Below are positions 3,477 to 6,037 of a DNA stretch of 21,534 bases, piece after piece. A model generated the notes under the pieces. The model had not been told where the DNA came from, ran no database searches, and saw nothing but the letters and a program-made list of their open reading frames with translations. Source of the DNA: a virus. Where the stretch lies: positions 1 to 21,534 of the IMG/VR virus record IMGVR_UViG_3300037628_000393; one strand, given 5' to 3'. The first letter of the stretch is position 1. The number at the start of each line of letters is the position of its first letter. The position numbers were made by a program, and so were the translations under genes.

Positions 3477-3736
3477 GCAGTAAGCGAAAAAATCAATCGC
3501 GGCTGCCCGACTGCCCCTTCTGCCACCCTTTCGAGCACAAGACGACCTGTGACGCGGGCGGGCCCAACGTGTTTCGCCTGCGGTGCAAGCGTTGCGGCTG
3601 GACCTGGACCATTAACATTCGAGATAAAGGTAACAAAATATGGGCAGAGGTGTTGAAATCGGCGAGGGGACCCGTCAAGAAGTCGTCCGGCTCCTCAAGG
3701 CGGGCTGCACGTACCGTGACGTCGCCTGGCAAATAA
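3473..3736 (+). CDS. Small zinc-ribbon protein
   Basis: An 87-residue protein read from a GTG that overlaps the terminase stop (GTGA). Two cysteine pairs, CPFC near residue 14 and CKRC near residue 40, frame a short domain ending in CGWTWT. This is a typical treble-clef or zinc-ribbon fold that would bind one zinc ion. The C-terminal third is basic and serine-rich (about residues 60-87). The open frame continues upstream to 3071 inside the terminase gene, but that part is a shadow of terL; the GTGA overlap picks the start. Its last 97 bases overlap the next gene in another frame, which is unusually long. The function is unknown. It may bind nucleic acid or be a packaging accessory protein. 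Confidence 0.7.
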   Translation: MSSKRKNQSRLPDCPFCHPFEHKTTCDAGGPNVFRLRCKRCGWTWTINIRDKGNKIWAEVLKSARGPVKKSSGSSRRAARTVTSPGK

Positions 3737-3840
3737 ACATCGGCATCAGCACGGTGGCGCTGGTCTACCTGCAATTATCAGAGCGGGAGCAAAAGGCCGT
3801 GCAAGCTGTCCGCGAGCGGCGGCTTAATCGGATGATGTAG
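3640..3840 (+). CDS. Small helix-turn-helix protein, possible small terminase or array-binding protein
   Basis: A 66-residue protein preceded by AAAGG eight bases before the ATG. Residues about 11-50 (TRQEVVRLLKAGCTYRDVAW then GISTVALVYLQL) read as a resolvase/sigma-like helix-turn-helix: helix, glycine turn, then a recognition helix following GIST. The C-terminus is highly charged (EREQKAVQAVRERRLNR). It starts inside the zinc-ribbon gene and ends 14 bases before the first GTCNN array. Its place directly after terL and beside a repeat array makes it a candidate for the DNA-recognition subunit of packaging or for a repressor of the reverse-strand genes. Both roles are inference. It is short for a complete small terminase. 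Confidence 0.6.
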   Translation: MGRGVEIGEGTRQEVVRLLKAGCTYRDVAWQINIGISTVALVYLQLSEREQKAVQAVRERRLNRMM

Positions 3841-3854
3841 GGATCAGAAAACAA

Positions 3855-4004
3855 GTCACGTCGGGTCGAGTCACGTCAAGTCACGTCACGTCATGTCAAG
3901 TCGAGTCCAGTCGAGTCCAGTCTCGGGGATAATTGAATGAGACCATCGGGTCTCGTCGGGTCGGGTCGAGTCATGTCAAGTCATGTCACGTCAAGTCGTG
4001 TCAC
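3855..4004 (+). repeat. GTCNN pentanucleotide array 1
   Basis: Fourteen consecutive five-base units of the form GTCNN (3855-3924), a 25-base core (3925-3949), then eleven more units (3950-4004). The first three bases are invariant across the array while the last two vary (AC, GG, GA, AA, AT, CA, TC, GT). The core is 5 x 5 bases, so the phase is kept across it. The last unit contains the stop codon of the minus-strand gene at 4001-4522. Array units cannot form stop codons on the plus strand unless NN is TA, so long plus-strand open frames here are an artefact of composition. Confidence 0.9.
3920..3954 (+). repeat. Array core element, copy 1 (GTCTC-core-GTCTC)
   Basis: The 25-base core reads GGGGATAATTGAATG and then AGACCATCGG, flanked on both sides by GTCTC. 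GAGACC-ATCG-GGTCTC forms a perfect six-base-pair hairpin with a four-base loop. The upstream GTCTC can instead pair with the same GAGAC, so two mutually exclusive stems are possible. Confidence 0.8.
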
Positions 4005-4522
4005 GCTTTCATTAAATCAATCAGCTTCCTTGGATCGGGCTGCGAAAGCCGCGAATCCTTGATCTCCGTTAGCCGCTTCCGAAAGCCACCGCTGGCACAT
4101 AAGTGAATCATACTGGCGGTGGCCATGTTGACGCGGTGCTCGTCGCGGGTGTTGCCGTCGAGTTTTTCGGCGTCCACCGTAGTGGCCACGTGCAAGGCCC
4201 GCGTGGTTTGTCGTCGGGCTCGGCCGAGTCCCGATCTAGTCTCCGTAACCCGCTCGGGATCCGTCAAGCAGGCCCAAGCCTTTCTTTCTCGGCACCAGCG
4301 CCAGACGATACCGTGGACTTTTTCCACGTGGCGAATGGCGCTGTTGACGTTGCCGTATCCGGGGCCGTGAACCGAGCATTCGCGAGTCACGATCTCGCTC
4401 ATCCGCTGGCGTGTGACCGTATCGCCCGGCTGGCCATTCTTTAGGAACTCGACTGCCCACCGCGTGAAGGGCGACATTTGGCCGGGGGCTAGTCTGTTGA
4501 ATTCGGGTGTTACCGTGCTCAT
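4001..4522 (-). CDS. Unknown protein with winged-helix-like DNA-binding region (minus-strand cassette A)
   Basis: A 173-residue protein on the strand opposite to all surrounding structural genes. The start is well supported: on the minus strand AAGGAGAA lies five bases before the ATG. Residues about 20-90 (from SPFTRWAVEFL through TVTRQRMSEIVT, then SAIRHVEKVHGIVWRW and a strand ending CLTDPERV) look like a winged helix-turn-helix: a helix, a turn, a recognition helix, then a beta wing. The rest (90-173) is basic with no motif I recognise. Its stop codon falls in the last unit of GTCNN array 1. Its leader begins only 28 bases from array 2 and resembles the leader of cassette B. It could be a regulator acting on the arrays; that is inference. 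Confidence 0.72.
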   Translation of the reverse strand: MSTVTPEFNRLAPGQMSPFTRWAVEFLKNGQPGDTVTRQRMSEIVTRECSVHGPGYGNVNSAIRHVEKVHGIVWRWCRERKAWACLTDPERVTETRSGLGRARRQTTRALHVATTVDAEKLDGNTRDEHRVNMATASMIHLCASGGFRKRLTEIKDSRLSQPDPRKLIDLMKA

Positions 4523-4605
4523 GTTTTTCTCCTTGTGGGTTAGAAATTGAGTCGCGTCGCGTCGCGTCGCGTCCGGTCTCGTCTTGTCTCGTCCTGTCTC
4601 GTCAG

Positions 4606-4640
4606 GTCTCGGGGATAATTGAATGAGACCATCGGGTCTC
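4606..4640 (+). repeat. Array core element, copy 2
   Basis: Identical in its 25 bases to copy 1 and flanked by GTCTC on both sides. Here GGTCTC precedes the core, so both alternative stems can have six base pairs: GGTCTC with GAGACC across a 14-base loop, or GAGACC with GGTCTC across ATCG. Confidence 0.8.
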
Positions 4641-4690
4641 GTCGGGTCGCGTCATGTCAGGTCGTGTCGTGTCCGGTCAAGTCAAGTCCA

Positions 4691-4725
4691 GTCTCGGGGA
4701 TAATTGAATGAGACCATCGAGTCTC
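4691..4725 (+). repeat. Array core element, copy 3
   Basis: Same core as copies 1 and 2 except for the last base (ATCGA instead of ATCGG), which shortens the small hairpin to GAGAC/GTCTC. GTCTC units flank it on both sides. Confidence 0.8.
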
Positions 4726-4780
4726 GTCGTGTTGGGTAATGTCCTGCCATGTCGAGTCGCATCCAGTCTAGTCCGGTCAC

Positions 4781-4807
4781 GGTTAAAATTACAAATGAGA
4801 CCATCGG
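4781..4807 (+). repeat. Array core element, degenerate copy
   Basis: 27 bases long. It keeps the right half (AATGAGACCATCGG) but the left half is changed to GGTTAAAATTACA. The flanking units are GTCAC and GTCGA rather than GTCTC, so the long stem is lost. It is probably a decayed copy. Confidence 0.6.
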
Positions 4808-4823
4808 GTCGAGTCAAGTCTCG

Positions 4824-5414
4824 TTACTCATCGCTCATTTCATAAGACTCAAAGTTCTCCACGGCAAACCGCCCGTTGATGCCACCGTTCTCCACTCGCA
4901 TGGAACCGAAGCCAATGAAGCGGCCGGCCGCCTTCAAGTGCGATTCCATCAGGTCGGGTGTAATCTTATTGTCGAAGATAAAAATCTTCGCTTTGGTTGC
5001 CCACTTGTCGATTGTAGGAAACACTCTCTCGACTCGCTTACCTGCACCTCGTACCCCTGTAGAGGGTACGAACATTGGTCGACCGTCGATTTTCTCAATG
5101 GTCACCGGGCCACCGTCACCGTTAATGAGCATAAGGCGGTCGGCCACCATGATTCCTTGTCGAAAGCGGGCAGTGTAGTTCTTTTTCCCTTCGCCTGGGA
5201 TCTTCTTGCCTAGCCACTTGGCGGACGATTCAAGAGCGTTTTTCAGGGCAAAGGGCTGAATGAAGGCGTTTCCCTTGTCATCCATGCGGACCTTCTTGGG
5301 CCATGTGCGGTGCTCGTAGGCCTCGTGTGTTTCGTCGTCCAGCTTCGGTTCGCTCACCGGGGCGCCGAAGACAAAATCGGAAGCACCCACTAAATCGCAT
5401 TCACAAACTAGCAT
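4824..5414 (-). CDS. Unknown phage protein with a glycine-rich C-terminal motif (minus-strand cassette B)
   Basis: The 196-residue reading starts at the ATG ending at 5414, which has AAGGAGA at the right distance on the minus strand. A longer open frame to 5483 exists, but its extra 23 residues are mostly translated GTCNN repeat and it lacks a binding site. The protein is mixed alpha/beta. Conserved-looking blocks are IQPFALKNALESSAKWLGKK (52-71), FVPSTGVRGAGKRVERVFP (115-133), FIFDNKITPDLMESHLKAAG (145-164) and RFIGFGSMRVENGGINGRF (165-183). I recall similar unnamed proteins in other phages, but no function. The final glycine-rich block followed by GRF is loosely reminiscent of RAMP/Cas7-type folds; this is a weak resemblance. 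The stop codon directly abuts array 2. Confidence 0.75.
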   Translation of the reverse strand: MLVCECDLVGASDFVFGAPVSEPKLDDETHEAYEHRTWPKKVRMDDKGNAFIQPFALKNALESSAKWLGKKIPGEGKKNYTARFRQGIMVADRLMLINGDGGPVTIEKIDGRPMFVPSTGVRGAGKRVERVFPTIDKWATKAKIFIFDNKITPDLMESHLKAAGRFIGFGSMRVENGGINGRFAVENFESYEMSDE

Positions 5415-5448
5415 TTCAGTCTCCTTGAGTCTGGGGTTGGGAAATAGA

Positions 5449-5613
5449 GTCGCGTCGCGTCCGGTCGAGTCTCGTCTTGTCATGTCTTGTCTCGTCGCGT
5501 CAGGTCTCGGGGATTATCGAATGAGACCATCGGGTCTCGTCGAGTCCCGTCATGTCTCGTCCAGTCCAGTCAAGTCGCGTCCCGTCACGTCATGTCGTGT
5601 CCGGTCAAGTCGC
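5449..5613 (+). repeat. GTCNN pentanucleotide array 3
   Basis: Twelve units (5449-5508), a core at 5509-5533, then sixteen units to 5613. Phase is perfect throughout and no unit is decayed. It lies upstream, in minus-strand terms, of cassette B, 34 bases from its start codon. The stretch between the array and the start codon resembles the matching stretch before cassette A. Confidence 0.9.
5504..5538 (+). repeat. Array core element, copy 5
   Basis: Differs from copy 1 at two positions (GGGGATTATCGAATG in place of GGGGATAATTGAATG) but keeps GAGACCATCGG and the flanking GTCTC units, so both stems remain possible. The changes lie in the loop of the longer stem. Confidence 0.78.
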
Positions 5614-5640
5614 GCAAACCCTCGACGGGCACAATTTTCA

Positions 5641-5698
5641 GCTACTACACAGGAAAGAGGCCACGCCGAGGGCGTAGTGTTTCATGACGTGTAGCAGC
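5641..5698. other. Nested inverted repeat between array 3 and the head genes
   Basis: GCTACTACAC (5641-5650) is the inverse complement of GTGTAGCAGC (5689-5698) with one mismatch. Inside lies a second small stem, ACGCC-GAG-GGCGT. Together they could form a 58-base structured element or a protein-binding site. It sits in the only long non-coding stretch before the late head genes (5614-5821), where I see no other gene. Confidence 0.4.
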
Positions 5699-5706
5699 GT
5701 GCCTAA

Positions 5707-5734
5707 ATCCTATCTAATTCATGATTCCCGTCAA
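5707..5734 (-). promoter_or_regulatory. Possible promoter for the minus-strand cassettes
   Basis: Read on the minus strand, TTGACG (5734-5729) is followed after 16 bases by TAGGAT (5712-5707). That is five of six and four of six matches to the sigma-70 boxes. Transcription would run through array 3 into cassettes B and A. This is a consensus-only call in a stretch with moderate A+T. Confidence 0.25.
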
Positions 5735-5821
5735 CATGTCTACAGAAATAATTCCGATGTAGTCAAATCAGCCCCACCCCCCTCTTGACACCCGCAAGGT
5801 TTGAACAGCAGCCCTGAAAGC

Positions 5822-6037
5822 ATGGGTGACTACTCAACATCCGCTGCGGCTGCATTGGCGGCCCTCAATAACTCCACCGACGGTGGTTTTGTCGAGGAGT
5901 ACCGCATCGGTCCCGAGCACGTCAAACGGGGAAAACTCGTCGACCAGATCAAAGCAGCCGCCATGTTGGAAGGCTTGGCGGCGCGTCGCTCTCGTGGATT
6001 GCATAACGTCGCTAAATTCACGGAGGCCAGACCGTGA
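5822..6037 (+). CDS. Small head-tail joining protein, gpW-like
   Basis: A 71-residue protein directly upstream of the portal and overlapping its GTG by GTGA. Residues from FVEEYRIGPEHVKRGKLVDQ onward show the gpW-like pattern of a short strand pair followed by a helix (LVDQIKAAAMLEGLAARRSR). Small gpW-type proteins normally sit just before lambda-type portals and seal the portal after packaging. I prefer the ATG at 5822. A longer frame can start at TTG 5801, but AAGG is only one base from that codon. No strong ribosome binding site precedes either start. Position is the main support for the function. Confidence 0.6.
   Translation: MGDYSTSAAAALAALNNSTDGGFVEEYRIGPEHVKRGKLVDQIKAAAMLEGLAARRSRGLHNVAKFTEARP

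Follow-up and report, generated by a model that had tools for sequence, protein, structure and literature searches.

A probable VIPR system with GACNN repeat arrays in an uncultivated tailed phage

The DNA analysed here (the window) is the whole stretch of 21,534 nucleotides, positions 1 to 21,534, of the 21.5-kb virus record IMGVR_UViG_3300037628_000393. It encodes a ParB-methyltransferase, TerL and a lambda-type portal protein; the nearest portal proteins of cultured phages share about 30-35% identity with it. Between terL and the portal gene there are three arrays of GTCNN units (plus strand) that alternate with two genes, A and B (Table 1). As the initial annotation had described, both genes run against the terL/portal operon, being encoded on the minus strand, and their ends fall in or next to an array unit, the stop codon of gene A (4001-4003) lying inside one. 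Gene B starts at 5414 with the RBS AAGGAG, and not at the first ATG of the longer open reading frame (5483), which falls inside array 3. The names vipr, vap and vrRNA in the table anticipate the assignment of the locus to a VIPR (Viral Interference Programmable Repeat) system argued for below.

Table 1. Features of the array locus in the window (tract coordinates given in minus-strand order).
Feature	Position	Strand	Description
Array 1	3855-4004	minus	3' of vap; two perfect tracts, proposed vrRNAs, 4004-3950 (11 units) and 3924-3855 (14 units)
Core, array 1	3925-3949	minus	Hairpin GAGACC-CGAT-GGTCTC formed with the neighbouring unit, then ATTCAATTATCCCC; proposed vrRNA 3' tail
Gene A, probable vap	4001..4522	minus	173 aa, probable Vap1-like accessory protein
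Array 2	4551-4822	minus	Between vipr and vap; perfect tracts 4695-4636 and 4610-4551, 12 units each
Core, array 2	4611-4635	minus	Hairpin as in array 1 core
Core, array 2	4696-4720	minus	Hairpin of array 1 type, one C-G pair changed to U-G
Array 2, remaining tracts	4780-4721; 4822-4808	minus	Degenerate; three phase-shifted units; cores in between
Variant core, array 2	4781-4807	minus	27 nt, hairpin shortened, phase broken
Gene B, vipr	4824..5414	minus	196 aa, RAMP/Cas7-like predicted guide-RNA-binding protein
Array 3	5449-5613	minus	5' of vipr on the gene strand; two proposed vrRNA tracts with a 25-nt core between
Array 3, tracts	5613-5534; 5508-5449	minus	Perfect, 16 and 12 units
Core, array 3	5509-5533	minus	Hairpin of array 1 type; plus strand GGGGATTATCGAATGAGACCATCGG

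The arrays are real, with perfect runs of 11-16 units; in 200 simulated sequences (first-order Markov, composition matched), GTCNN runs reached three units at most. In total, array 1 contains 25 units, array 2 about 33-39 and array 3 28, and among the 77 units of the exact runs 14 of the 16 possible NN dinucleotides are present. The degenerate tract of array 2 is weaker, with exact GTC in eight of its 12 units. The initial annotation held that phase is kept across 25-base cores, which is true of four of them (GGGGATAATTGAATGAGACCATCGG and close variants); it had missed the 27-base variant core, which breaks the phase, the three units at 4808-4822 being out of phase with the others of array 2. 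The anatomy of the arrays, with 5-nt tandem units of three fixed and two hypervariable bases, is that of VIPR arrays, which have about 9-16 units per vrRNA.

Many unrelated contigs of IMG/VR contain diverse GTCNN arrays. When the database was scanned for 13 units, 50 stretches were obtained, 42 of them with high NN entropy and eight plain microsatellites, whereas the reversed motif, CTGNN, used as a control, yielded 29 stretches and none that was diverse (0/29). In bacterial genomes, only four of the 120 stretches listed were diverse (L138, L184, L209 and L229) and the other 116 were microsatellites, so that, like VIPR systems, diverse arrays belong mainly to phages and prophages. From these three scans we conclude that the NN positions vary, that GTC is under constraint and that the element is viral, in line with the earlier suggestion that selection acts on the GTC positions and that plain slippage does not explain them. 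Diverse runs of at least seven units in the fetched loci were of GTC/GAC only, with the exception of one TTG/CAA run, although this set had been chosen for GTC. A slippage microsatellite, which is what nearly all the bacterial stretches are, is refuted by the split in NN entropy (2.4-3.8 bits in viral arrays, mostly 0-1 in microsatellites), and the common form shared by independent contigs from different samples speaks against an assembly artefact; we regard this explanation as having next to no probability. Two of the bacterial assemblies, a Vicinamibacterales MAG (L138:7177-7241) and an Aminicenantes MAG (L184:2322-2381), carry diverse GACNN tracts and no Vipr detectable at E<=0.001.

The search of contigs for GTCNN runs and their neighbours, proposed in the initial annotation, also showed that the widespread arrays come with a conserved two-gene module. 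In contigs oriented by GTC the common layout is array, gene of ~160-180 aa, array, gene of ~185-200 aa, array, and in many of them the relatives keep both the periodicity and the alternation with genes on the strand opposite GTC. Iterated HMM searches starting from genes A and B found 38 and 59 homologs, respectively, in array loci (aligned as families A2 and A1, respectively). Diverse tracts are present at 77 loci, and at 58 of these a homolog of Vipr, the family of gene B (see below), was found; no more than 1.5 kb separates it from 200 of the 203 tracts.

This distribution bears on two roles suggested earlier. The position between terL and the portal gene, found also at locus L015 (between portal and TerL), could point to a packaging site for TerL, or the arrays could be methylated by the upstream ParB-methyltransferase. 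TerL homologs were found, however, at 6 of the 77 array loci and methyltransferase homologs at 5 (minimum counts, the loci being partial), arrays being present at many loci where these genes were not seen, and in other phages the module adjoins helicases, exonucleases or methyltransferases, making both roles highly improbable. The alternation of arrays and genes might also be taken for attC-like recombination cassettes that swap gene modules, the more so as modules with GAC and GGY repeats can share one genome. Yet the two intervening genes belong to two constant families across unrelated phages and not to a changing pool, and the cores vary between phages; the cassette exchange envisaged earlier is thus hardly credible.

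When the profile of the gene B family (A1) was compared with PDB, a single solved protein was matched, 36pp_D, 'SUSP1 Vipr protein' (E=3.8e-10), and the direct comparison with the Vipr gene of SUSP1 (L281:28474-29061) by hhalign gave 97.8%, E=8e-13. The two proteins are 20% identical, and a profile was required to recover the relation in PDB, where a single-sequence phmmer search with gene B gave chance matches only; Pfam gave no convincing match for either gene A or gene B. The AF2 model of gene B (pLDDT 94.9) resembles Csm3/Cas7 of type III and type VII CRISPR complexes, both by Foldseek (E to 1.6e-7) and by VIA-align (Z to 12.5, rmsd 3.9-4.1 over 161-167 residues), and the protein has a G-rich loop, GFGSMRVENGGINGRF. 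Gene B is, therefore, a Vipr, a RAMP-fold homolog of SUSP1 Vipr with the G-loop. In cultured phages, the search for close relatives gave one weak match for each of two queries and none for the third, and in plasmids none was found.

The RAMP fold and the glycine-rich loop are shared with the Csm3/Cas7 backbone of type III and VII CRISPR complexes, but in the window there is a single small RAMP, the period is of 5 nt instead of 6 and the RNA would have fixed triplets; no CRISPR array or cas genes were seen beside the locus, nor any cas gene among the window proteins scanned. TIGR-Tas is another phage-borne system for RNA-guided DNA targeting, with short spacers and tandem guide arrays, although Tas proteins have Nop-like domains and TIGR spacers are longer than those of the window. 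A fixed triplet with two-base spacers is also the arrangement of TRAP sites, (G/U)AGNN, of which about 11 repeats are found in leaders. In a TRAP-like RNA array, a ring protein would wrap the triplets in mRNA leaders and control the translation of the neighbouring gene, and the identical spacing, the location before the RBS of both B and A and the GAC in the mRNA sense would all suit it. The protein fold is nevertheless the wrong one, gene B being a RAMP, with SUSP1 Vipr as its closest solved relative, and not a TRAP beta-ring, and neither the tracts found also downstream of genes nor the diversity of NN fits, so that we consider a TRAP-like array very unlikely.

Gene A is less clear. Its family (A2) is present at many array loci and is probably distantly related to SUSP1 Vap1, as suggested by a match that is only moderate (hhalign, 74%, E=2.7e-5). 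Through this match it would be the accessory vap that VIPR systems have next to vipr. The AF2 model is of good quality (pLDDT 92) and Foldseek gave no significant match to it; the N-terminal half is possibly a winged helix, judging from weak, non-significant wHTH/MarR-like matches. Such a fold in protein A, together with a GTC every five base pairs, could be seen as favouring a role as DNA sites, the arrays being iterons, operators or a centromere bound in double-stranded form by protein A or by the HTH protein encoded at 3640-3840, with GTC each half turn on alternate faces of the helix. Binding sites would have no need, however, for hypervariable NN that resemble adjacent natural dinucleotides, and would require neither conserved one-sided 3' tails nor a Cas7-like predicted RNA-binding protein at most array loci. 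Among the 77 partial loci, the HTH protein was found only in the window. We find DNA binding sites very unlikely, if slightly less so than the TRAP-like array.

On the gene strand the motif of the window is GACNN and not GGYNN. GAC is on the gene strand in 136 of the 139 tracts near A-family genes. In SUSP1, GGY tracts are on the vipr/vap strand, one upstream and three downstream, and GGY is likewise on the gene strand at the loci with weaker Vipr matches and arrays (L282, L325, L285, L327-L330). By analogy with these GGY loci, the vrRNAs of the window would be GACNN RNAs transcribed from the minus strand. The sequences that follow the tracts fit this choice of strand. The array 1 core hairpin has a predicted RNA fold of -9.3 kcal/mol, with z -2.24 on the gene (minus) strand and -0.7 on the plus strand. 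In the window, inner tracts are followed by the GAGACC-CGAT-GGTCTC hairpin and the three outer ones by GACTC/T..TTTC..CCC-like tails, while in other contigs the sequence 3' of the GAC tracts is conserved from tract to tract of one contig (TTGATTT in L027, AAGATTT in L041, CCTTTTT in L109, AAGAATACATAATGGCAT in L113 and a strong hairpin, z -3.8, in L250). These flanks and the window hairpin correspond to the invariable 3' tail of VIPR. The core pattern itself had no matches in the viral contigs searched, and Rfam gave nothing at gathering level, and no ribozyme, over 3500-6000. The last units before the RBS of vipr and of vap (5449-5508 and 4551-4610) have in common the NN series CG GC GC .. 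TC, and many other guides finish in AA AA; the 3'-most guide units may therefore be constant and not target-specific. A promoter search found none that stood out as strong (one found, 1.0 expected); just upstream of array 3, at 5661-5734 (minus strand), there are a weak promoter-like TTGACG-16-TAGGAT, at chance level, and a terminator-like hairpin.

The gene strand does not always appear to be the RNA strand. GAC arrays are opposite vipr at a set of divergent Vipr loci (L010, L019, L033, L038, L061, L095, L096, L106 and L119) and at two sister loci (L042:4326-5519 and L076:5309-6512), which differ from almost every other locus of the main clade in that vipr and vap are both on the strand opposite GAC. 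Arrays opposite vipr may have their own promoters. At the divergent loci the tracts are often phase-shifted, perhaps overlapping, and may match the staggered arrays of the preprint on VIPR (PMC13142463).

The literature provides a precedent for an array of which the initial annotation knew no standard form. VIPR, described in 2026, is an RNA-guided system of viruses related to CRISPR (PMC13142463). Phages carry its Vipr proteins together with accessory vap genes and vrRNAs, each vrRNA having 9-16 YNNGG units and then a 3' tail; the vrRNAs alternate GGY and NN and guide Vipr to double-stranded DNA, which the NN bases read with one base skipped between pairs, and the complex represses transcription, the predicted targets being satellites and competing prophages (PMC13142463). 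The VIPR of Escherichia phage SUSP1 (KT454805, type II; PMC13142463) is like the window in having a Vipr RAMP followed by Vap on one strand, vrRNA tracts upstream and downstream of them, a 3' tail, 5-nt units of three fixed and two hypervariable bases and a phage as carrier. It differs in its motif (GGY, GAC in the window), in its tail (a pseudoknot, in the window a short hairpin or A/T-rich element) and in the window tracts flanking each gene on both sides.

Since gene B matches SUSP1 Vipr by profile and has the RAMP fold, and gene A is a probable distant relative of Vap1, we interpret the locus as a VIPR system of a tailed phage, the arrays being vrRNA genes, with a probability of roughly 0.92. 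Following the SUSP1 precedent, the minus strand would be read in the order array 3, vipr, array 2, vap, array 1, and each tract of ~11-16 GACNN units would be the variable part of a vrRNA closed by a short tail that is conserved or forms a hairpin. The Cas7-like Vipr would line this RNA in several copies, one per five nucleotides, keeping the GAC triplet unpaired and exposing the NN dinucleotides, which would pair with double-stranded target DNA as NN-x-NN-x, one base being skipped. Binding would repress transcription in a competing phage, prophage or satellite, and Vap might assist, perhaps as a DNA-binding partner.

A way to look for the skip rule is to compare the NN strings of guides (190 unique ones) with coding DNA. 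With NN taken as codon positions 1-2 the fit was better than with positions 2-3 by 54 log units, and a period of 3 (constant codon phase, 1-nt skip) was better than periods 2, 4 and 5 by 55-58. Simulated period-3 guides gave an equal amount, and simulated guides of other periods the opposite sign or none. When units were shuffled among the guides of one locus, however, 47+/-7 of the 55-58 log units remained, so that the signal is mostly one of composition and the period test had to be rejected as decisive for a skip code; the statistics are compatible with the one-base skip rule and are no proof of it. Searches for targets with a 1-nt skip were negative. In all viral contigs, guide 5534-5613 had no matches at nine NN and nine at eight NN, none extending, and guide 5449-5508 had 30 matches at eight NN, none extending either. 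There were no matches for an L012 guide at ten NN, for an L229 guide in 141 genomes or for an L284 guide in 132 genomes. When 158 guides were compared with fetched DNA totalling 2.3 Mb, at skips of 0 to 3, only self-overlaps at skip 3 rose above noise. These failures are unsurprising for uncultivated phages.

The GAC alphabet differs from the GGY of the published main text, where GAC is not mentioned; all seven VIPR types are described there as having GGY/NN 'or a related consensus (fig. S17)' (PMC13142463), which may include GAC. A tree built from 56 Vipr proteins places the window in a GAC clade of 34 members (support 99/98); another 12 proteins form a second GAC clade (100/93), and the GGY rows are outside both. 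The repeat motif thus seems largely to follow the Vipr clade, although its history is unsettled, with three changes required on the tree and long branches. Deviants of GAC that are in phase (GAT 72, AAC 51, GGC 42, GCC 26) lean to GRY. GAC-type Viprs (window:4827-5414:-, A1 columns) share a block, IPGKGK-TYTKHF plus RTW, that is absent from the GGY Viprs aligned and is a candidate, from the alignment, for the reading of the fixed triplet. One assembly of an FCB-group MAG (G002) has a GAC system (L284) and a GGY system (L285), which may be orthogonal systems sharing a cell or the result of a binning error. With this pair as the suggestion of coexistence, we put forward, tentatively and at somewhat less than even odds, that GAC/NN VIPRs are a large branch, mainly of uncultivated viruses, with a repeat alphabet of its own, in which Vipr clade and motif have co-diverged, and that GAC and GGY systems can therefore coexist orthogonally in one cell.

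The arrays were spotted in the raw sequence without knowledge of VIPR, and provide support for such systems from a separate direction, that of the uncultivated virosphere. The GAC branch offers dozens of loci in which to ask how Vipr reads its fixed triplet, and raises the questions of whether guide sets become orthogonal through a difference in triplet and of what the phages target; a protein of ~20 kDa and a single short RNA would be enough to test all of them directly.
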